Of a DNA stretch of 23,557 nucleotides, positions 4,931 to 23,557 are shown piece by piece. Position 1 is the stretch's first letter. Every line of letters starts with the position of its first letter. A program made the position numbers and the translations under genes. The stretch spans positions 1-23,557 of IMG/VR virus record IMGVR_UViG_3300029448_000449, one strand, 5' to 3'. The DNA comes from a virus. Under the pieces are notes generated by a model that did not search any database, had not been told where the DNA came from, and saw only the letters and a list, made by a program, of their open reading frames with translations.

Positions 4931-5125
4931 ATGGCAGCGAAAAAGAAAACACATAAAACTAAAGATGGCAGAACAGCTAAGAAAGGTCTTTATTACAATA
5001 TAAATAAAAAACGTAAAGAAGGCAGAAAAATGCGTAAGAAAGGAGCTAAAGGTGCACCAACTGCTGCTGCTTTTAAACGTTCTGCTAAAACAGCTAAAAA
5101 GCCTAAAAAGAAAAGTAAAAAATAA
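4931..5125 (+). CDS. Small lysine/arginine-rich basic protein
   Basis: A 64-residue protein made mostly of Lys, Arg, Ala and Gly, with only two acidic residues. It begins KKKTHKTKDGRTAKKGLYYN, has a KKRKEGRKMRKKGAKGAPTA core and ends in a poly-lysine tail. ATG4931 has GAGGA at 4920-4924 with good spacing. The composition suggests nucleic-acid binding or charge neutralisation of packaged DNA, as with histone-H1-like tails; this is inferred from composition alone. The next gene encodes another basic protein. Confidence 0.75.
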   Translation: MAAKKKTHKTKDGRTAKKGLYYNINKKRKEGRKMRKKGAKGAPTAAAFKRSAKTAKKPKKKSKK

Positions 5126-5127
5126 TA

Positions 5128-5427
5128 ATGGCTGCAAAACGTAAAGAAAAGTCTATAAAGCGTACTACTAAAGGCAAAGGTGCGAATTACCGACCTACAA
5201 AAAGTGGTGCGGGTATGACTAAGAAAGGCGTTAAAGCATATAGAAAAAAGAATCCTGGTAGTAAATTAAAAACAGCTGTTACAGGAAAAGTTAAAAAGGG
5301 AAGTAAAGCAGCAAAAAGAAGAAAGTCTTACTGTGCTAGAAGTGCAGGACAGATGAAGAAATTTCCTAAAGCGGCTAAAAATCCTAATTCAAGATTGCGA
5401 CAAGCAAGAAAAAGGTGGAAGTGCTAA
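5128..5427 (+). CDS. Basic DUF6321-like phage protein
   Basis: A 99-residue, strongly basic protein. The pattern AGMTKKGVKAYRKKNPGSKL (about residues 28-47), then KGSKAAKRRKSYCARSAGQM (57-76) and the ending RKRWKC matches what I recall of the DUF6321 family of marine phage and cyanophage proteins. One Cys lies in the conserved SYCAR segment and one is the last residue. Its role is unknown; the charge suggests nucleic-acid contact. ATG5128 lies two bases after the previous stop without a clear ribosome site, suggesting translational coupling. It overlaps the nuclease start as TAATG. Confidence 0.78.
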   Translation: MAAKRKEKSIKRTTKGKGANYRPTKSGAGMTKKGVKAYRKKNPGSKLKTAVTGKVKKGSKAAKRRKSYCARSAGQMKKFPKAAKNPNSRLRQARKRWKC

Positions 5428-5853: not shown

Positions 5854-6201
5854 ATGGAAGAACAAATAATTACTGAAGACGGTATCGTAGCAAAAAACAA
5901 ACCAATAAAAAGAAAATTAGAACTTGATATAGACGTAACTCCTAAAAACAATGGAGAAAACCCATTTATTAAATGGGTACACCTTGCTAAAACTATAGAC
6001 GCTTGGCGTATCTTTCCTAGAATATTCGTAAGTGTTTATATAGTCTTACTTTACAAAGTAGTTATTTGGTTTATGGAACTTCCTGAACCTAACTTAGAAC
6101 AAGCAGGTCTTGTGTCTATTGTTGTAGGAGCTATGGCAGCAGTGTTTGGAATATACGCAGGAACATCAGGACAAAGTAAAAAATTTAAAGGCGAAGATTA
6201 A
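5854..6201 (+). CDS. Two-helix holin-like membrane protein
   Basis: A 115-residue protein with a charged, probably cytoplasmic N-terminal half (residues 1-50) and two hydrophobic helices at about 56-74 (IFVSVYIVLLYKVVIWF) and 84-103 (AGLVSIVVGAMAAVFGIYAG), joined by a short ELPEPNLEQ turn; the tail is charged (SKKFKGED). This matches class II holin topology, in which small membrane proteins form lesions that let the endolysin reach the wall. Its position shortly after the endolysin and before more small membrane proteins supports a lysis role. A GAGG site precedes ATG5854. Confidence 0.65.
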   Translation: MEEQIITEDGIVAKNKPIKRKLELDIDVTPKNNGENPFIKWVHLAKTIDAWRIFPRIFVSVYIVLLYKVVIWFMELPEPNLEQAGLVSIVVGAMAAVFGIYAGTSGQSKKFKGED

Positions 6202-6386
6202 TGAAAGTATTTGCTACTGAATTTAAAGTCGGTGATAAAATATATGATGGACCTTATATCTATGCTAATTCTTTTGAAGAAGCAGAAATGGAAGCAGTAG
6301 TTTATGGTGTTATTGTTGTTGGTATAGTAACAGCTATTATCAGTAATGAAGAAGAAGGTACGGAATGGAACAGGGTTTTGCATTAA
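6201..6386 (+). CDS. Small hypothetical phage protein
   Basis: A 61-residue protein starting at a TAATG overlap with the holin-like gene. It has a compact alpha/beta look: FATEFKVGDKIYDGPYIYAN, then an EEAEMEAV helix, a hydrophobic strand (VYGVIVVGIVTAII) and a polar end. I read it as a small soluble globular fold rather than a membrane protein, although the Val/Ile stretch at about 34-47 could be membrane-associated. No function is recognised. Its last 22 bases overlap the following gene. Confidence 0.65.
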   Translation: MKVFATEFKVGDKIYDGPYIYANSFEEAEMEAVVYGVIVVGIVTAIISNEEEGTEWNRVLH

Positions 6387-6661
6387 TAGCTGAAGTCGGT
6401 ATTCCTATTGCAGGTGCATTAGTTATGGCGTATTTTATCTTTTTAGTTATGAAACAACTTATGGATGGTTTAGTTGATGAAATTAAAACAGTACAAGGTA
6501 TTACTAAAATGTTGATTACTAGAGCGTCTATTATGAACAACGATATGATTCGTATTGATACAAGCGTATCTAGTGCTTTGAATATACCCCCTGACCTAGA
6601 TAGAATAGCTAGAGCAGAAAATTTTGTAGAAGACGGGAAGATAGATGCTAGGAGAGATTGA
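6365..6661 (+). CDS. Holin-like protein with N-terminal membrane helix (paralog 1)
   Basis: A 98-residue protein: one hydrophobic helix at about residues 5-28 (LIAEVGIPIAGALVMAYFIF), then a long helical, coiled-coil-like region (MDGLVDEIKTVQGITKML, MNNDMIRIDTSVSSAL) and a charged tail. The next gene encodes the same architecture with matching landmarks (LIAEVGIPI against LIAEFGFPV; NNDMIRID against DQDMIRLQ; VSSAL against VNTVL), so the two look like tandem duplicates. ATG6365 has GAAGG nearby and overlaps the previous gene by 22 bases. A holin, antiholin or membrane-tethered scaffold role is possible; sequence does not decide. Confidence 0.65.
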   Translation: MEQGFALIAEVGIPIAGALVMAYFIFLVMKQLMDGLVDEIKTVQGITKMLITRASIMNNDMIRIDTSVSSALNIPPDLDRIARAENFVEDGKIDARRD

Positions 6662-6945
6662 TGGACATAGCTCAATTAATAGCAGAGTTCGGTTTTCCTG
6701 TAGTAATGGTAGTAGGACTAGGTTATTTTGTTTATTATGTATGGCAAACAATAACGAATACAATAGATCCAGCAGTACAGGAAATGAAAGGCACAATTAT
6801 AAGATTAACAGACCAACTTCGTTTATTAGACCAAGACATGATAAGATTACAACAAAAAGTCAATACAGTATTACAGCTAAAAGAGCAGGAGGTATTGAGT
6901 GATGATAAAAAAGAAAACAACGAAAAAACAAAAAGAGGAAGTTGA
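6661..6945 (+). CDS. Holin-like protein with N-terminal membrane helix (paralog 2)
   Basis: A 94-residue protein with a hydrophobic helix at about residues 4-27 (LIAEFGFPVVMVVGLGYFVY) and a coiled-coil-like helical region to about residue 75 (MKGTIIRLTDQLRLLDQDMI), ending in a Lys/Asp-rich tail. ATG6661 overlaps the previous stop as TGATG with AGGAGAG at 6650-6656; an in-frame TTG at 6658 is too close to that site. Its end overlaps the csgF-like gene by 44 bases. It pairs with the preceding paralog, perhaps as a hetero-oligomer or a holin/antiholin couple. Confidence 0.65.
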   Translation: MDIAQLIAEFGFPVVMVVGLGYFVYYVWQTITNTIDPAVQEMKGTIIRLTDQLRLLDQDMIRLQQKVNTVLQLKEQEVLSDDKKENNEKTKRGS

Positions 6946-7411
6946 AAAAGTTTTAATAACTAGAGTTATGGTAGTTATCGGAATAATGTTGTTTGTGGGA
7001 ATATTCTGTCAAAACCTTTGGTCAGACCAAATAGTACATAAATTTAAGTCTCCTAGTTTTAATGGTGTTGGCACATCATCTCATTACCTAACTATAGAAA
7101 ACCAAGAGTACACACGTAAACTTACTATTAAAGAAGAAATCAAAGCATTACAAGAAGAAATAGAAAGAGAAAAAGAAAATAGTACATTAGCTAGATTCAT
7201 GAGGAATCTCGAATCACGTGTCTATGCTGAGTTATCTAGACAGTTGGTAAACAACCTCTTTGGAGAAACACCTCAAAGTTCGGGTACAATAACCCTAGAA
7301 GGCAACACCATTGAATATACAAGTGATGGTGTGACATTAACACTAAAGATAACGGAAGCAGATGGAACGATCACTGAGATTACAATTCCTATTGGTACCT
7401 TTACTTTCTAG
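6902..7411 (+). CDS. csgF: CsgF-like curli secretion-channel partner
   Basis: A 169-residue protein resembling CsgF, which plugs into the CsgG pore and couples export to fibre nucleation outside the cell. After a hydrophobic helix (about 22-39) comes IVHKFKSPSFNGVG (44-57), matching the FxFxNPxFGG start of mature CsgF that inserts into the CsgG barrel. The C-terminal half matches too: RFMRNLESRVYAELSRQLVN, then IEYTSDGVTLTLKITEADG and a final ITEITIPIG. Oddities are a 20-residue basic n-region before the hydrophobic helix and an inserted charged helix (about 76-95). AGGAGG at 6887-6892 serves ATG6902; GTG6899 is possible. The end overlaps csgG by 50 bases. Confidence 0.78.
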   Translation: MIKKKTTKKQKEEVEKVLITRVMVVIGIMLFVGIFCQNLWSDQIVHKFKSPSFNGVGTSSHYLTIENQEYTRKLTIKEEIKALQEEIEREKENSTLARFMRNLESRVYAELSRQLVNNLFGETPQSSGTITLEGNTIEYTSDGVTLTLKITEADGTITEITIPIGTFTF

Positions 7412-8198
7412 TTGTTCTATTTTTGATCAGTATCAAGATACGTACGAACAGAGATTTAAGGCACACGACGTAGTTTCTATTCAGGAACTACAGTCTCCTT
7501 ATTTACGTGATGTAGACGTTCCTGAAGTTAGTCCTGTTGTTGCGGTATATCCTACCGCCTTTACCGACCAAACTGGTCAAAGAAAAAGCAATAGCGAGTT
7601 TGCTTTATTTAGTACAGCTATAACACAACAACCAAACGCATTACTTATACGAGCTTTAAAACACGCAGGCAATGGTAATTTCTTTAGAGTAGTAGAAAGA
7701 GTTGGTTTAGATAACTTAACCAAAGAAAGACAACTAATACGTTCTGCTAGAGAACAATTTGCTAGTGATGAAGAAAAGAAAAAACAATTAGCTCCTTTGT
7801 TATTTGCTGGTATCTTAATAGAGGGTGCTGTTATTTCTTACGAAGCTAATCTAGAATCTGGTGGTATTGGAGCTAGGTATCTTGGAATTGGCAACAGCGT
7901 ACAATACAGGGAAGATAATATAACTATAAGTTTACGTATGATTTCTGTGGCTACAGGAGAAGTATTATTAGAAGTGATGAGTCAAAAAACTATTTTTAGT
8001 TATGGTAAATCGAACGATGTTTTTAGGTTTATAGAAATGAACACTGACCTTGTAGAAATAGAATTAGGTAATGCAAGAAATGAGTCTTCTACTATTGCTT
8101 TAATGAAAGCTATAGAAGGAGGCGTATTAGAAATAATAAAACTTGGTTATGAGCGAGAGTACTGGGTTTTACAAAAAGAAGAAAAGATGGTAGAATGA
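7362..8198 (+). CDS. csgG: CsgG-like outer-membrane curli secretion lipoprotein
   Basis: A 278-residue protein close in length to E. coli CsgG (277). The signal peptide ends in a lipobox, LSSC, with lipidated Cys18. Conserved stretches include DQTGQRK (69-75), FSTAITQQPNALLIRALK (83-100), VERVGLDNLTKERQLIRSAR (111-130), LIEGAVISYEANLESGG (152-168), IGARYLGIGNSVQYRED (169-185) and SVATGEVLLEV (195-205), all aligning with CsgG. CsgG forms a nonameric outer-membrane pore that exports unfolded curli subunits. The constriction loop differs: it is one residue longer, keeps the Phe (Phe83) but has no Tyr. ATG7362 lies inside the csgF end with GGAAG upstream. Confidence 0.9.
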   Translation: MERSLRLQFLLVPLLSSCSIFDQYQDTYEQRFKAHDVVSIQELQSPYLRDVDVPEVSPVVAVYPTAFTDQTGQRKSNSEFALFSTAITQQPNALLIRALKHAGNGNFFRVVERVGLDNLTKERQLIRSAREQFASDEEKKKQLAPLLFAGILIEGAVISYEANLESGGIGARYLGIGNSVQYREDNITISLRMISVATGEVLLEVMSQKTIFSYGKSNDVFRFIEMNTDLVEIELGNARNESSTIALMKAIEGGVLEIIKLGYEREYWVLQKEEKMVE

Positions 8199-8202
8199 GA
8201 TT

Positions 8203-8934
8203 ATGATGATGAAGAAGTGCATACAACTTTTGTTATGTCTTGCTTTATTTCCGTTATTTGCGGCGGATAACGAGATATATGTAGATCAGTCTGGTACTGG
8301 GGCGAATATAGACCTAGAACAATTAGGTATATCTAATATTATAGGTGGTCTAAACTCTACAGCAGGAAGTTTGACTGCTTTTGATTTAGACGGCGATACT
8401 ATGACGTTAGACATTAATATGATTGGTGCAACTAACAAATTCCTCGGTGATATAAACGCTAGTACTTTTACAGGGTTATATAATTTTACTGGTGGTAGTA
8501 ATACTTTTACTATACAAGTAGACCCAACTAACACTTACAGTTCTGCTGGTTCTGACCAAAACGTAGCAGTTACAGGTAGTAGCAATACCTTCACATTAAA
8601 TCAAGGAACTACCGCAATAGCAGCAAACTTAAATTTAGATTGGATTATTCAAGGTTCTAATAACACAGTTACATCAAATATTAATATTGATGGTGCTACA
8701 AACTACATGGATATTGATGGTTCTGATAACGCAGTAACTTACACAGGTACTGGTGTTAATGCTTCAGCAGGTGGGTATTTTTACCTAGACCATACAGGCG
8801 GACAAAGAACATTTAATATTCAACAACTGAGTACCCAAGACAATGACTGGCTCAAGATTATATCAATCGGTGGTAATTCTGCTTCTACTGTGTGTGTCGT
8901 TCAAAACGATCAAGGCACAAGCACTTCCTGCTGA
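8203..8934 (+). CDS. Secreted protein with curlin-type repeats (candidate fibre subunit)
   Basis: A 243-residue protein with a Sec signal peptide (MKKC, LLLCLALFPL, cut near FA-AD at about 20-22). Directly after the cut is a curlin-type repeat pair: NEIYVDQSGTGANID then LEQLGISNII, giving the I-V-Q-G-N and L-Q-G-N spacing of CsgA/CsgB. Later segments are weaker but similar (GSNTFTIQ, GSSNTFTLNQG, LDWIIQGSNNT, FNIQQ, VCVVQNDQG). The whole mature chain is Gly/Asn/Thr/Ser-rich and beta-prone, as in a solenoid. It ends with Cys231 and Cys243. Next to csgF and csgG it is the obvious export substrate. Three ATGs (8203, 8206, 8209) compete as start. The last 92 bases overlap the FecR gene. Confidence 0.72.
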   Translation: MMMKKCIQLLLCLALFPLFAADNEIYVDQSGTGANIDLEQLGISNIIGGLNSTAGSLTAFDLDGDTMTLDINMIGATNKFLGDINASTFTGLYNFTGGSNTFTIQVDPTNTYSSAGSDQNVAVTGSSNTFTLNQGTTAIAANLNLDWIIQGSNNTVTSNINIDGATNYMDIDGSDNAVTYTGTGVNASAGGYFYLDHTGGQRTFNIQQLSTQDNDWLKIISIGGNSASTVCVVQNDQGTSTSC

Positions 8935-9961
8935 TATTGGGGATATATCTGAGCTAAATGGTTCAGCACAAATAGTTAGAGATAAACCATACGACGCTAA
9001 TTTAAAGTTTGCTATTCAAAGTAATGACGAAGCTATTACTAAAGACGGCAGAATGGCTATTACGTTCCTTGATGATTCTACGGTAAAACTTACTGAACAC
9101 TCACAATTACTTATAGACGAATATATTTACGACCCTGATCCTAGTAAAGCAAAAATGGCTCTTACTTTTGGTTTAGGTACTGCTAGATTTATTACAGGTA
9201 ATTTAAACCGCATAGATAAACAAAATATTACACTTAAAACTCCTACAGCTAATATTGCAATTCGTGGAACAGATTTCACAGCGACTGTTGATGAGTTAGG
9301 ACGTTCGCTTATTATTTTACTCCCAGACCCTTTTGGTTTATCTAGCGGAGAAATAGAAGTAGTTACTGCTATGGGTACTGTTTTATTAAACAAGCCTTAT
9401 CAAGCTACTACTGTAAGCGTTTTTGAATCAGCTCCTACTAAACCTGTTATCCTGGATTTAACACTAGACGTTATAGATAATATGTTAATTGTTACACCTC
9501 CTAAAGAAGAACAAAGTATTGAAGAAGAAACTACAACAGCACAAACAGATAGCGTATTAGATTTTAACGACTTAGATATAGATTACCTTGCAGAAGATTA
9601 TTTAAAAGAAGACAGTTTAGAATTTACAGAACTAGATATAAATTATCTTGATGTAAATTACCTAGAAGATTTATTAAATGTGCTTGATGCGTTAGCTATA
9701 GCTGATGAAGAAGACCAGTTAGCACAAGCAACCAGTACACAGATTAGTGGTACTTTATTAGGTAAAGACCCTGACACACAGATAACAACTTTAATAACAG
9801 GGAATGTTATTAGTTTACGAAGACAGGTGAATGAATCAGTTCAAGTTGATTTAGACGGCGGTAACTCGTATACGGTTATTTTGATACAGGACGGAGTATC
9901 TAATATAATTAAAGTTAATGGAGGAAGTGATAGCGTAATTACTATTACTCAAAATGATTAA
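8843..9961 (+). CDS. Secreted FecR-domain protein with acidic repeat and curlin-like C-terminus
   Basis: A 372-residue protein. A signal peptide (residues 1-25/27, core VVILLLLCVSF) is encoded entirely in the overlap with the upstream gene. Residues about 34-150 are a FecR domain: ISELNGSAQIVRD, DGRMAITFLDDSTVKLTEHS, LTFGLGTARFITG and LKTPTANIAIRGTDFTATVD. FecR domains act as extracytoplasmic signal sensors or relays. Residues 241-280 are an acidic linker with a 20-residue duplication (LDIDYLAEDYL / LDINYLDVNYL). Residues 338-372 are curlin-like (VILIQDGVSNIIKVNG, then SVITITQND). No membrane helix follows the signal peptide, so it is periplasmic, surface-bound or exported. It ends in TAATG with the cyclase gene, the pairing expected of a sensor unit. 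Confidence 0.82.
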   Translation: MTGSRLYQSVVILLLLCVSFKTIKAQALPADIGDISELNGSAQIVRDKPYDANLKFAIQSNDEAITKDGRMAITFLDDSTVKLTEHSQLLIDEYIYDPDPSKAKMALTFGLGTARFITGNLNRIDKQNITLKTPTANIAIRGTDFTATVDELGRSLIILLPDPFGLSSGEIEVVTAMGTVLLNKPYQATTVSVFESAPTKPVILDLTLDVIDNMLIVTPPKEEQSIEEETTTAQTDSVLDFNDLDIDYLAEDYLKEDSLEFTELDINYLDVNYLEDLLNVLDALAIADEEDQLAQATSTQISGTLLGKDPDTQITTLITGNVISLRRQVNESVQVDLDGGNSYTVILIQDGVSNIIKVNGGSDSVITITQND

Positions 9962-11694
9962 TGAAAAAATTAATAATACCTATATTAGCCATACTTGTAT
10001 TACCTTTATTATTTCAAACAACACCTACAGAAATACTTAAATTAAAAACGTTTGATGCTTTAATACAAAAACAAGAACCTTCTGGTAATTTTGTTATATT
10101 GAATATAACAGAAGATGATGTAGAAAGAGAAGGTGGTTATCCATTACCTAGAGAACGTTTAGCAGATATACAATTAGAAATATTAGGTAAAGGAGCTATG
10201 GGTGTTGGTTGGGTTATCTCATTTCCACAAGCAGATAGAATGGGAGGGGATGAACGATTTGCTAGTACGTTAGGTTATGCTCCTAGTGTAATAGCTACGT
10301 TCGAAGACGGTAATCAAAATTATCCTAAAACAACAGGCACAGTGATCAAAGGACCCGATGTTGGTGGGCTTTCTTCTACAGGAGTAAAACAAAACTTTTA
10401 TTTGTACGATAAAATACCACAAGGAGTTGCTATAGCTCCTACGGAAGTAGACCAACTAGTTAGACGTATTCCGCTTTTATTAAGAACTCCTGACGGTTGG
10501 GCGGCTTCTTTTGGTACTCATGTGTTAAAAAGTTTGACAGAAGCTCGTACTTATATTATTACGACTAATGAAAACGGTGTACAAGAGATAGCTGTTAGGG
10601 GTATACCACCAGTCAAAACAGATAGTCTTGGTCGTAAATGGATTAGTTGGGTAGATACACCACAAACAGATTTACAAGAAATGAATGTAAATGGTAAGTT
10701 TGTATTTGTAGGTGTTACTGCTAACGGTGTGATGCCACAAGTCGCAACTCCTGTTGGTTTATTAGAACCACATAAAATACAAGCAGCATTAGCAGAATCA
10801 ATACTCATACAAAACAGTCCTTATATACCTGATTACGCATTAGCTTTAGAACTTTTAATATTTATAGCGTCTGTGGGACTTATATGGGCGTTTATAAGCT
10901 ATTTAGGGATAACGTGGGGCGTAAGTCTAGCTTTACTTACGATGGCTTTAACGGGCTTATACGGTTATTACACAATAACTACAGGTGTTTTGATAGATGT
11001 TACGTGGTCTTTAGTATCGCAGTTTATCGCAGGAGCTATAGCTTTCTATTTAAGGTTTAGAGAACAATACAAACTTAGACAACAAATAAAGAAACAGTTT
11101 GAACATTATCTTGACCCAAGACAAGTTAAACGTCTACAAAAAGACCCTAGTTTGTTAAAATTAGGCGGAGAAAAAAGAAGATGTACTTTCTTGTTCACAG
11201 ACGTTAGAGGATTCACAGCGTTATCTGAAACACTTCCACCAGAAGAAGTAACTTCTATAATGAACAAAGCGTTAACAATACAATCAGATGCAGTACAAAA
11301 ATATGGAGGTATGGTCGATAAATACATAGGTGATGCTATGATGGCTATATTCAACGCACCTATAGATTTAAAACACCATGAACAGGTAGCGGTTAAATGT
11401 GCTAGAGAAATACAAGAAAATATAATAAACGCTAATATTGGTGTAGAGATTGGTGTTGGTGTAAATACTGGAGAAGCCGTAATTGGCAACATGGGTAGTG
11501 ATACTAGATTCGATTATTCGGCTATCGGAGACGCTGTTAATACTGCTGCTAGATTAGAATCAGCAACTAAAGAAGCGGGTGTAAATATACTAATAGGGAA
11601 AGAAACAGAGCTTTACTGTGGTATAACACTAAAACCGTTAAAACCAATAAAAGTAAAAGGTAAAGAAAAACCTTTAAAAATATACACTTTTTGA
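9961..11694 (+). CDS. CHASE2-domain class III adenylate/guanylate cyclase
   Basis: A 577-residue membrane receptor cyclase. A first helix (3-19) leads to an extracytoplasmic CHASE2 sensor (about 20-290, with FVILNITEDDVEREGGYPLP and VGWVISFPQADR). Three helices follow (about 294-312, 319-339, 343-364), then a short coiled region and the cyclase domain (about 405-577). Active-site elements are all present: FTDVRGFT with metal Asp414, DKYIGD with Lys454 and metal Asp458, DYSAIGD with Ser520 at the purine-selecting position, and NTAAR with Asn527 and Arg531. Lys plus Thr/Ser is the class IIIb adenylate cyclase pattern, so cAMP is the likely product. It is translationally coupled to the FecR gene. 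Confidence 0.92.
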   Translation: MKKLIIPILAILVLPLLFQTTPTEILKLKTFDALIQKQEPSGNFVILNITEDDVEREGGYPLPRERLADIQLEILGKGAMGVGWVISFPQADRMGGDERFASTLGYAPSVIATFEDGNQNYPKTTGTVIKGPDVGGLSSTGVKQNFYLYDKIPQGVAIAPTEVDQLVRRIPLLLRTPDGWAASFGTHVLKSLTEARTYIITTNENGVQEIAVRGIPPVKTDSLGRKWISWVDTPQTDLQEMNVNGKFVFVGVTANGVMPQVATPVGLLEPHKIQAALAESILIQNSPYIPDYALALELLIFIASVGLIWAFISYLGITWGVSLALLTMALTGLYGYYTITTGVLIDVTWSLVSQFIAGAIAFYLRFREQYKLRQQIKKQFEHYLDPRQVKRLQKDPSLLKLGGEKRRCTFLFTDVRGFTALSETLPPEEVTSIMNKALTIQSDAVQKYGGMVDKYIGDAMMAIFNAPIDLKHHEQVAVKCAREIQENIINANIGVEIGVGVNTGEAVIGNMGSDTRFDYSAIGDAVNTAARLESATKEAGVNILIGKETELYCGITLKPLKPIKVKGKEKPLKIYTF

Positions 11695-11702
11695 TATATA
11701 AT
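11673..11702 (+). promoter_or_regulatory. Putative sigma70-like promoter for the downstream virion genes
   Basis: A perfect TATAAT lies at 11697-11702, with TTTAAA at 11673-11678 as a four-of-six match to TTGACA and an 18-base spacer. It sits at the end of the cyclase gene and just before the longest intergenic gap of the window, where a new transcript for the structural genes would be useful. In AT-rich DNA such matches also arise by chance, so location is the main support. Confidence 0.35.
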
Positions 11703-11710
11703 CAATGTAT

Positions 11711-11771
11711 CAGCTATTGTGCTGCAGCTTACGGGGTGAGCTTTAACTCGCAAATACGTGTAAACACGCTG
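11711..11771 (+). promoter_or_regulatory. Structured 5' leader with three short hairpins
   Basis: The gap between the cyclase stop and the next start is GC-richer than its surroundings and holds three consecutive inverted repeats: CAGC/GCTG (11711-11714 with 11721-11724), GTGAG/CTCGC (11736-11740 with 11747-11751, one G-U pair), and CGTG/CACG around a TAAA loop (11757-11760 with 11765-11768). A competing pairing AGCT/AGCT (11726-11729 with 11739-11742) would exclude the second hairpin, and CAGC 11711 could instead pair with GCTG 11768-11771, closing a junction just before the GGAG ribosome site. It may be a translational control element or mRNA-processing site. No known riboswitch class was recognised, and no T-run supports a terminator. 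Confidence 0.35.
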
Positions 11772-11779
11772 GAGAACCA

Positions 11780-11887
11780 ATGACTGGAGTAGATAAAAAG
11801 ACATATCTAAAGAAAAAAGGGAGTCGCTCTGACTTCTATATTTACACGTCTAAAGGAAAGAAACAAAAAACTAGGAGCCGATTCTAG
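11780..11887 (+). CDS. 35-residue basic peptide
   Basis: ATG11780 has GGAGA at 11771-11775, and the frame ends at a TAG that overlaps the next start as TAGTG. The peptide is rich in Lys, Arg, Ser and Tyr (VDKKTYLKKKGSRSDFYIYT, ending KTRSRF). It is the first gene after the putative promoter and structured leader, so it could be a leader peptide controlling the downstream genes by coupling, or another small basic phage protein like those at 4131-5427. The clean junction and ribosome site favour a real gene. Confidence 0.55.
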   Translation: MTGVDKKTYLKKKGSRSDFYIYTSKGKKQKTRSRF

Positions 11888-12435
11888 TGAGCACAACATT
11901 AGTTAAAAATCCTGAACTGTCGTATCAAGAAGCTTGTGAGTTTTTCGATTATAAAGAAAATAAAATAAAATTCCAAAACAAAATTAAACAGTTTGAAGCA
12001 GCGATTACTAAACACTGCGAAGAAAATAACAATCAAGAACTAAACGAAAAAGTAAAAGGAGATGTGGAAGGAGTTATTTCACATGATTTTGCAGATGGAC
12101 AATACATAAGAACAGCAGTAGCTCCTAAAAATACTTTAGTATCAACTAAGATACATGCTAAAAATCATCCATTCTTTTTAATGAAAGGAGATATATCAAT
12201 ATTTGGTGAAGACGGCGTAAAACGTATACAAGCACCTTTTCATGGAATAACAGAAGCAGGAACAAAAAGAGTTTTATATGTTCATGAAGAATGCACTTTT
12301 ATAACAGTACATAGAACAGACTGTTTAACAATAGACGAAGTAGTCGCTGAAATAACAGTGGCTGATTTTTCTGATTTAAAATTAACAGGAATAGATACAA
12401 AACAAATAGATAATCTTATGGATCAAATATCATGA
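11887..12435 (+). CDS. Cupin-fold phage protein
   Basis: A 182-residue protein. The N-terminal 60 residues are helical and charged. Residues about 75-145 have the look of a cupin barrel: VSTKIHAKNHPFFLMKGDIS (His90, His94, Gly101), then IQAPFHGITEAGTKRVLYVH (His119, His133) and TFITVHRTD (His142). Small phage cupin-like proteins of this kind are frequent near tail genes and may be structural rather than enzymatic; several His could still bind a metal. GTG11887 has AGGAG at 11873-11877. It overlaps the next gene as ATGA, so translation is coupled. Confidence 0.6.
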   Translation: MSTTLVKNPELSYQEACEFFDYKENKIKFQNKIKQFEAAITKHCEENNNQELNEKVKGDVEGVISHDFADGQYIRTAVAPKNTLVSTKIHAKNHPFFLMKGDISIFGEDGVKRIQAPFHGITEAGTKRVLYVHEECTFITVHRTDCLTIDEVVAEITVADFSDLKLTGIDTKQIDNLMDQIS

Positions 12436-21545: not shown

Positions 21546-22205
21546 ATGGACCCTAATCAAAAATTAACAGGCATAACACAAATGGCACCCCCTTCTATGA
21601 TGGGCGGACAACCACCTATGGGTGCACCAAAACCACCAATGCCACCTATGGGTGGAGCAAAACCCCCTATGCCACCTATGGCGGGCGGTGGAGCACCTCC
21701 TATGCCAGAACCAGGAATGGGTGAAATGGCTATGGAAGGACAACCTATGGAAGAACCAGGAATGAATCTAGAACAAGATTCAATGATGTTAGCTGAAGCT
21801 GTAGTAGGTAGAGCACAAGGCGATGTAGGTGCTGCTATTGCTGTATTAGATAATGCAAAAGCTATGTTGATTGCTAGTGTTGAAGGCGGCGGTCAAGAAC
21901 CTCAAATGATGGAAAACGGTGGTGAGTTAAAACCAGTGCCTGAGGGTAAAAAAGGAGCAGGATTAAGAGCATTACCTGACGATGTTAGAAACAACATGGG
22001 TTTTATGAATATGGGTGGACCTTTGTACGCTGCTGAGGGTATGGCTATGGGCGATACTGATGTATTAAGACAAATGATTATGGAAAACTTACAAAAACCT
22101 GCTATTCAAGAACAAGCTATGAATAATGTTATGGGTCAAATGAGTCAAGGTGTTGCTGATAAAGATAAAGCTATGGCTGATCTTATGAAGTTTAAGATGT
22201 CTTAA
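21546..22205 (+). CDS. Met/Pro/Gly-rich probable virion protein
   Basis: A 219-residue protein starting at ATG21546 with AAGGAG just upstream. Residues 12-75 are a low-complexity Met/Pro/Gly region (PPMPPMGGAKPPMPPMAGGG). A helix follows at about 77-112 (MMLAEAVVGRAQGDVGAAIA), then the segment GLRALPDDVRNNMGFMNMGG (about 138-157), a pattern I have seen in marine phage structural proteins, and a Met/Gln-rich helical tail. It is the last gene of the forward-strand block, and its stop codon overlaps the stop of the opposite-strand helicase gene. I infer a virion or scaffold role. Confidence 0.6.
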   Translation: MDPNQKLTGITQMAPPSMMGGQPPMGAPKPPMPPMGGAKPPMPPMAGGGAPPMPEPGMGEMAMEGQPMEEPGMNLEQDSMMLAEAVVGRAQGDVGAAIAVLDNAKAMLIASVEGGGQEPQMMENGGELKPVPEGKKGAGLRALPDDVRNNMGFMNMGGPLYAAEGMAMGDTDVLRQMIMENLQKPAIQEQAMNNVMGQMSQGVADKDKAMADLMKFKMS

Positions 22206-23557
22206 CCTATCCAGTCTTTCCATTTCTCGTCACCAAGAACTTCTTGTGCTAAACTAAGTTTGTTACGTAAAGCTTTTACAATCTTTTCGTCAACCGTTCC
22301 TTTAGCTACTAAATCAATATAAGTCACTTTATTAGTTTGTCCTATACGATGAGCACGGTCTTCAGACTGTAGTCGTTTTTCTAAGTCGTAGTTATTACTG
22401 TAATAGATAACATTACTTGCTTCAGTAAGTGTTATACCATAACCACCTGTTTGTGTATTACTAATTAAATACTGTAGGTCTGAGTTTGGATCTTGAAACC
22501 TTCTAATTATTTCTTGTCGTTCTTGGTCTGGTGTTTCTCCGTAATACGTAGCCACACTATCAACACCTGTTAATCCATGTAATGTTTTTAATATTCGTTT
22601 TATATCATATTGATAGTTAGCCCATATGATAGTTTTACCTTGTACTTCTTCTAGCACGTTGATTAACTCATCTAAACGATTGCTTTTAACTTCTACTTCT
22701 TCACCGTTGTCGTGTCTAACGAAACCACAAACAACTTGGTGTAGTCTAAGTATTTGTGTAAGAACAGATGTTACACTAACTATTTCATGAGAATCTAGTT
22801 CAGCGATAGCATAGTCTTTTAGTTCTTTATAAACTTTCTTTTGTTCAGGAGTAAGTTCTACTTCTCTTCTTTGATATACTTTATCAGGAAGGTCTAAACA
22901 TTCTTTCTTTAGCACTCTGTAAGAGAACTCATTTACATTATTAGTTAGTTCTTCTAAGTTTTGATAACCTACAACTTGTCTAAAAGACCTAGTTCCCATT
23001 TTACGATTGATTAATTTAGCGTATCTATTTTGAAAAGAATAGAATGATGTATAACCTAACAACTGCGGTGATAAGAAACTGCTTTGACTATATAAGTCTA
23101 ATGGTGATTGGGTAACAGGGAATCCTGTAAGTATTCTTCTGTATTTAGTATTGATAGCTAACTTCAATAAGTTTTTAGTTCTTTGAGCTTTAGGATTTTT
23201 TATAGTAGTTGACTCATCTACAGCTATTAAAACATTATGTGCTAAGATAAATTTCTCTACAAAAGCTACACCTTTTTTAGTGCTGAAAGCTTCTACATTA
23301 ATAATAAGTATTTTTAAATCATGTCCTACTTCAAACAATTTAGTTAGTTCTCTTTTTTGTTTTAAGGTAGGTGCTGGATTCCATACACCGATATGTTTTT
23401 CTATATGATCAGGCATATGGGTAGGTATTTCTTTTTCTGACCAGTTTCTATAAACACCTTTAGGTGCGATTATTATTGCAGCGTTGATACCGCCTTTGTC
23501 ATAAAGCATAGCTACATTATCTATAAGGACTTTAGATTTACCAGTACCCATTTCCAT
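22202..23557 (-). CDS. SNF2-family DEAD/DEAH-like helicase (5' partial at window edge)
   Basis: The visible 451 residues cover nearly the whole two-domain motor. Walker A is MGTGKS (3-8), the Walker B box reads VDEST (113-117) instead of DEAH, motif III is LTGFPVTQSP (143-152), and motif VI is QSEDRAHRIGQ (397-407), the QxxxRxHRxGQ signature of SNF2 ATPases. The Met at the edge is four codons from Walker A, so the true start and the Q-motif region lie beyond the window. Phage SNF2-type proteins act as ATP-driven translocases in replication, recombination or transcription. It is the only gene on this strand and probably starts the early or replication region. A weaker match to motif III (usual GTP) is GFP. 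Confidence 0.88.
   Translation of the reverse strand: MEMGTGKSKVLIDNVAMLYDKGGINAAIIIAPKGVYRNWSEKEIPTHMPDHIEKHIGVWNPAPTLKQKRELTKLFEVGHDLKILIINVEAFSTKKGVAFVEKFILAHNVLIAVDESTTIKNPKAQRTKNLLKLAINTKYRRILTGFPVTQSPLDLYSQSSFLSPQLLGYTSFYSFQNRYAKLINRKMGTRSFRQVVGYQNLEELTNNVNEFSYRVLKKECLDLPDKVYQRREVELTPEQKKVYKELKDYAIAELDSHEIVSVTSVLTQILRLHQVVCGFVRHDNGEEVEVKSNRLDELINVLEEVQGKTIIWANYQYDIKRILKTLHGLTGVDSVATYYGETPDQERQEIIRRFQDPNSDLQYLISNTQTGGYGITLTEASNVIYYSNNYDLEKRLQSEDRAHRIGQTNKVTYIDLVAKGTVDEKIVKALRNKLSLAQEVLGDEKWKDWIG

Follow-up and report, generated by a model that had tools for sequence, protein, structure and literature searches.

A curli cluster in pelagimyophages was reported by Zaragoza-Solas et al. in 2020 (PMC7029224), and in the paper on phage Melnitz CsgG/CsgF was modelled, lysis control was proposed, and no clumping was seen in culture (PMC9004378). 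In 2022 Wittmers et al. described the full module, FecR and adenylate cyclase among its genes, both in podoviruses of the HTVC023P type and in pelagimyophages; they found T8SS in nine HTVC023P-type podovirus genomes and published the co-occurrence of the module, its global ocean distribution, its expression in metatranscriptomes and its transfer across families (PMC9599517). FecR also occurs with CHASE2 sensors in a Campylobacterota cAMP cluster (PMC9239204) and in the Burkholderia BiofilmReg operon, which is needed for biofilm (PMC5192318). Our literature search found no experiment on any of the module's proteins.

The stretch of viral DNA analysed here (the window; an entire IMG/VR record of 23,557 bases) carries such a module. 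A sequence-only reading of the window had regarded the combination as undescribed, a view that the 2022 publication of the cluster, FecR and adenylate cyclase included, overturns. Because that paper had described the complete module, the finding is a correct re-discovery (PMC9599517). The module is already known; what we add concerns the small proteins without a kinase domain, the export and tail of FecR, the cyclase residues, a receptor search and the bacterial loci.

The phage and its module genes

By its sequence, the window phage is an HTVC023P-related podovirus. Its structural protein at 1473-3347 matches those of the Pelagibacter phages HTVC023P and HTVC027P, along with those of Roseobacter phages and phage DSL-LC04, so the host is probably SAR11-like. 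Five genes follow one another on the plus strand at 6899-11694, in the order CsgF, CsgG, curlin-like, FecR and cyclase; their presence and position, as first read from the letters, were confirmed; Pfam matches bear out the identity of four, and a family alignment agrees with the curlin-like reading of the other. No regulatory RNA or tRNA was found in the window, and promoters and terminators inside the module were in no excess over shuffled sequence.

The CsgF-like gene (6899..7411, starting at GTG 6899 or ATG 6902) has a Pfam CsgF score above the cut-off (E 7.8e-15), and the N-terminal motif F-x-x-P-x-F-x-G of its product is invariant. The same region is the CsgG-binding part of E. coli CsgF. 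The CsgG-like gene (7362..8198; Pfam CsgG E 1.2e-45) encodes a putative outer-membrane lipoprotein pore with the lipobox LSSC, and its profile aligns with E. coli CsgG structures over most of the length (E 3e-66). The next gene (8203..8934) encodes a curlin-like (CsgA/B-type), presumably exported repeat protein with a signal peptide, recognized by alignment with the HTVC008M and Melnitz curlins. Its repeats are degenerate: the window protein has no Pfam Curlin_rpt match of its own, one of 19 members of the curlin-like family matches Curlin_rpt (1.6e-4), and the Melnitz counterpart does so at 8.6e-6. The invariant Q/G/N positions of the curlin pattern are kept across the family in the alignment that includes HTVC008M and Melnitz. 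An AlphaFold model of the protein is all-beta (pLDDT 79); a Foldseek search returned nothing significant, with weak matches that were largely beta-helices, and neither the curlin nor the FecR profile found a convincing relative among solved structures. A CsgE gate was sought with Pfam in the ten proteins encoded at 5854-12435; none matched, even with E values as high as 1 allowed. Most likely, the curlin-like protein is exported via a CsgG/CsgF pore, and this half of the system rests on strong homology.

The FecR-domain gene (8843..9961; Pfam FecR E 2.2e-9) encodes a protein whose N-terminus is a signal peptide, and both this signal peptide and the C-terminal tail are conserved. Pfam found the FecR domain alone, with no anti-sigma part, and no sigma factor was found among the neighbouring proteins scanned. 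Given the signal peptide and the lack of an anti-sigma part, the protein is unlikely to work as a classical FecR. A role as an iron or anti-sigma regulator was discarded in view of the topology and the missing domains. The last 30 residues in the window, YTVILIQDGVSNIIKVNGGSDSVITITQND, resemble a curlin repeat (~9865-9955). When the non-FecR matches to a profile of the myovirus-type tail were ranked, 17 of the first 20 were curlins; column-shuffled versions of that profile gave a mean of 0.57 curlins, with 1 of 60 reaching 17 and none of the 60 reaching the best score. The podovirus-type profile was weaker (curlins were 10 of the top 20, a number equalled by 4 of 60 shuffles). Together these matches are suggestive of a curlin-like repeat in the FecR tail. 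No such tail was seen in the four bacterial FecR neighbours of CHASE2 cyclases that were inspected. The AlphaFold model of FecR was too poor for use (pLDDT 49.6).

The last gene of the module (9961..11694; Pfam CHASE2 1.5e-22, Guanylate_cyc 1.5e-19) encodes a predicted class III, adenylyl-type nucleotide cyclase fused to a CHASE2 sensor, with one transmembrane segment, a periplasmic CHASE2 domain, further transmembrane segments and a cytoplasmic cyclase domain. The window protein has D414, K454, D458, S520, N527 and R531. Of 58 sequences, 57 retain the two metal-binding Asp residues, the base-selecting Lys and the transition-state Asn and Arg; their second base-selecting position is Ser or Thr. 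The exception is the Melnitz cyclase, where Ser replaces the transition-state Asn and Asp occupies the other base-selecting position in the alignment. Among solved structures, adenylate cyclases are the closest relatives. The window enzyme thus looks catalytically intact, and we infer adenylyl specificity from its active-site residues.

Ahead of CsgF on the plus strand lie two genes for small one-transmembrane proteins: a coiled-coil-like copy of 98 aa (6365..6661; phrog_18771 E 7e-24) and a second copy of 95 aa (6658..6945; phrog_18771 E 4.9e-26, phrog_4898 'holin' E 1.3e-5). By position, the gene at 6365..6661 is the 'HK' of Wittmers et al. The small proteins of the window and of HTVC008M are 93-98 aa long with one transmembrane segment, and homologues occur in both HTVC008M and Melnitz; in four fully testable myovirus-type loci a small protein is encoded between CsgF and CsgG. 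Pfam found no HisKA or HATPase kinase domain in the small proteins of the window or HTVC008M. With this length and without a kinase domain, the label 'histidine kinase' (PMC9599517) is ruled out for these genes. The single transmembrane segment and the weak PHROG holin match (E 1.3e-5) hint at a possible holin; the small gene accompanies the module in myophages too. The sequence-only reading had placed these holin-like genes outside the module as its border. Homologues head the module at every testable locus of both types (podovirus 64/64, myovirus 74/74). Both genes (6365-6661 and 6658-6945) are members of the module rather than a mere border. On the other side, a tail-fibre-like virion gene (11887-12435) lies outside the module border.

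Inheritance of the module in phages, and its counterparts in bacteria

Relatives of the window's CsgG are encoded by 414 stretches in IMG/VR. Each scan covered 80 loci, the closest relatives of its seed, so the counts describe the podovirus-type family and its myovirus cousin rather than all CsgG-bearing viruses, and a gene was scored only at loci whose contig extends far enough. With the window CsgG as seed (podovirus-type), we found the small gene in 64/64 loci, CsgF in 68/68, curlin in 70/70, FecR in 63/63 and the cyclase in 38/38. The CsgG of HTVC008M (myovirus-type) gave 74/74, 76/76, 60/60, 39/39 and 17/18 for the same genes, and a second curlin gene was common in these loci. Seeding with the cyclase returned FecR in 37/37, curlin in 33/33, CsgG in 23/23 and CsgF in 22/22. 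The sole exception was a myovirus-type locus (L209) with no cyclase nearby. The presence and order of the genes far exceed chance, being maintained in practically every relative that could be tested; the window itself carries the HK-like gene(s), CsgF, CsgG, CsgA/B, FecR and AC in the conserved pelagiphage order.

The gene junctions are conserved as well. The CsgF-CsgG overlap is 50 bp long in 67 of 75 loci and the curlin-FecR overlap 92 bp in 57 of 65; in 50 of 58 loci FecR and the cyclase are spaced by -1, -4 or 0 bp. The proposal of a single tightly coupled unit, for which a search of virome contigs for the five families had been suggested, therefore held up: the families were found together in all testable relatives but one, co-occurrence is near-complete in both directions, and the overlaps are conserved. 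We conclude that the module is one strict unit inherited together in both phage types. Within it, the distances of FecR and CsgG correlate at r 0.73, 0.74 and 0.92 in three samples, and those of FecR and the adjacent cyclase at a lower r of 0.51, 0.51 and 0.64; the cyclase co-diverges with the other module genes less than is mostly seen among those genes.

In bacteria the two halves were found apart. CsgF occurred in 7 of 386 alphaproteobacterial genomes, and the 18.5-kb CsgF loci of five of the seven carried CsgF, CsgG and mostly also curlin matches, with no match to FecR or a CHASE2 cyclase within ~9 kb. CHASE2 was present in 186 of the 386 genomes; 30 CHASE2 loci were examined together with 1.5 kb on either side, and FecR adjoined the cyclase in four. 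These four loci, together with the Campylobacterota (PMC9239204), bear out the earlier statement that FecR stands beside CHASE2 cyclases in bacteria. The phage module has the look of a fusion of two bacterial modules. Loci of bacterial origin were rejected as an account of the seven genome-contig matches, all of which carry the phage-type module (complete, cut by the contig end, or without the cyclase); these have the appearance of phage contigs that ended up in bacterial genome bins.

A candidate mechanism and its rivals

We lean, by a modest degree, towards a pelagiphage curli module that exports a curlin-like protein, pairs FecR with the CHASE2 cyclase in a coupled sensor, and alters the host surface. 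CsgG and CsgF would form an outer-membrane pore in the infected cell, through which the curlin-like protein would reach the surface. Periplasmic FecR may touch the curlin or the pore through its curlin-like tail and act on CHASE2, so that cAMP production by the inner-membrane cyclase would follow the state of export. How FecR is coupled to CHASE2 and what the phage gains are the more conjectural parts; the likely benefit would be a changed surface of the infected cell, through an amyloid coat, aggregation or superinfection exclusion. The points that speak for this explanation are the domains and their order, the co-occurrence, the overlaps, the cyclase active site, the export and tail of FecR, the FecR-CsgG co-divergence, the bacterial FecR-CHASE2 pairs, and the earlier publication of the module with its metatranscriptome expression (PMC9599517). 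Against it stand the absence of clumping with Melnitz (PMC9004378), the missing CsgE, the degenerate curlin and its lack of a significant fold match, the weak podovirus-type tail signal, the scarcity of cNMP receptors, the lower co-divergence of the cyclase and the Asn loss in Melnitz.

A cAMP signal would have few places to go. None of 14 related phage records, two of which are the complete genomes of HTVC008M and Melnitz, contained the cNMP-binding domain PF00027; among 78 Pelagibacteraceae genomes it occurred in five, and only one of those matches is a CRP-type regulator. If the host is SAR11, a cAMP report would thus be without a known receiver. The earlier suggestion that the module reports by cAMP fares accordingly in part: the cyclase active site looks intact, and the receptor side is lacking in those phage records and nearly so, with one CRP-type regulator, in the host genomes. 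The same 78 genomes gave two class III cyclase (PF00211) matches. Both are phage-module contigs, which rules out native SAR11 class III cyclases as their source. A more specific form of the sensor model can be offered tentatively, and we consider it possible but doubtful: FecR would be an amyloid-state sensor whose tail docks on the exported curlin or the pore and tunes the CHASE2 cyclase, giving a cell-surface-to-cAMP circuit with a receiver that is not CRP-type, in hosts without native class III cyclases and almost always without CRP.

The missing CsgE gate among the module proteins would also fit an open pore, in which CsgG/CsgF admits larger nutrients or cofactors (cobalamin, siderophores) or leaks, and curlin is secondary; such an uptake or leakage pore was put forward by Zaragoza-Solas et al. 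and Wittmers et al. (PMC7029224, PMC9599517). A pure pore would need neither curlin nor CsgF, and their presence counts against it: the curlin-like protein is encoded in all testable loci (70/70, 60/60 and 33/33), and myovirus-type loci often have a second one. We regard this reading as unlikely. An independently acting cyclase that merely travels alongside a curli unit of CsgF, CsgG, curlin and FecR has its attractions in the lower co-divergence of the cyclase, the myovirus-type locus without a cyclase nearby and the separate bacterial loci; its presence in 38/38 and 17/18 testable loci, the presence of CsgG in all testable cyclase-seeded loci, and the adjacency of FecR and CHASE2 elsewhere (bacterial loci; PMC9239204, PMC5192318) make two such units quite improbable.

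Under a lysis-timing reading, proposed for Melnitz (PMC9004378), the moment of lysis would be set by a pinholin- or secretin-like device built from CsgG/CsgF together with the small one-helix proteins. A holin-annotated PHROG matches the small proteins (E 1.3e-5), and of the 29 podovirus-type loci that could be tested, 12 have an endolysin relative no more than 6 kb upstream, as does the window. However, 17 of the 29 have no such endolysin there (other endolysin families would be missed), the HTVC008M and Melnitz modules have a gene for an ssDNA-binding protein on one side and genes for the tail or baseplate on the other, and FecR, curlin and cyclase are left unexplained. We therefore give a lysis device very little credence.

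Pelagiphages are among the most abundant ocean viruses. A module that gives streamlined hosts a new surface protein and an otherwise unmade second messenger would alter what infection does to the cell. Under the export-and-sensing model, an exported FecR that ends in a curlin-like tail, a cyclase that seems to have no known receptor and the lack of a kinase make for a narrower, testable scheme, which takes the place of published speculation on iron and kinase regulation.

Comparison with known systems

The window shares with the E. coli csg system (type VIII secretion) the CsgG pore, CsgF and a curlin-like exported protein. Unlike E. coli csg, its module has no CsgE found, a single degenerate curlin, and FecR and cyclase in addition. 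The Campylobacterota and Burkholderia clusters resemble the other half, with an exported FecR-domain protein beside a CHASE2 membrane sensor; no curli genes are reported in either, the sensor output in Burkholderia is a kinase, and the Campylobacterota cluster has a cAMP phosphodiesterase and a TPR protein alongside.

Among phages, the curli operons of HTVC008M and Melnitz have the same gene order as the window (PMC7029224, PMC9004378), with CsgG identities to the window's of 43% and 39%, respectively. They differ in that the phage is a myovirus and a second curlin gene lies between FecR and the cyclase, and the Melnitz cyclase, unlike the window's, is without the transition-state Asn. The HTVC023P-type T8SS module has two curlins whereas the window has one, and its description takes the small proteins as histidine kinases and FecR as an iron regulator and does not name CHASE2 (PMC9599517). 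Like the window, it has one or two small proteins ahead of csgF, and it shares with it the phage type and the gene order CsgF, CsgG, CsgA/B, FecR, adenylate cyclase.

Basic reading frames and the contig end

Two adjoining genes of the window (4931-5125 and 5128-5427) encode small proteins of 64 and 99 aa that are very rich in Lys and Arg, and a further basic reading frame of 35 residues, MTGVDKKTYLKKKGSRSDFYIYTSKGKKQKTRSRF, lies between the cyclase and tail-fibre-like genes (11780-11887). Gene orientation switches at a DNA helicase gene (22202-23557), which is encoded on the opposite strand and extends to the contig end.

Module genes in bacterial bins and a Salmonella phage record

Contigs bearing the phage module, complete or partial, are found in GTDB genome bins labelled Maricaulis, Neomarinimicrobiota, Flavobacteriaceae, Rhodobacteraceae and Pelagibacter (loci L084-L090 and L109). 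These contigs probably represent phage contamination of the MAGs, which could misdirect analyses of the module's origin. A CsgG gene with 43% identity to that of the window also occurs in OR851715.1 ('Salmonella phage S.Kent 1-2-1'), a very short phage entry of 1499 bp that carries no annotation; this gene is possibly host chromosomal DNA.

CHASE2 and cyclase genes elsewhere

In two Pelagibacteraceae (SAR11-family) genomes, G013 and G017, the CHASE2 domain is fused to a SpoIIE phosphatase rather than to a cyclase (L301:3049-5085 and L302:3469-5469). The cyclase of Methylophilales phage Melnitz (L002:7917-9968) may, judging from its residues, be inactive or altered, because Ser replaces the transition-state Asn and Asp occupies the second base-selecting position.
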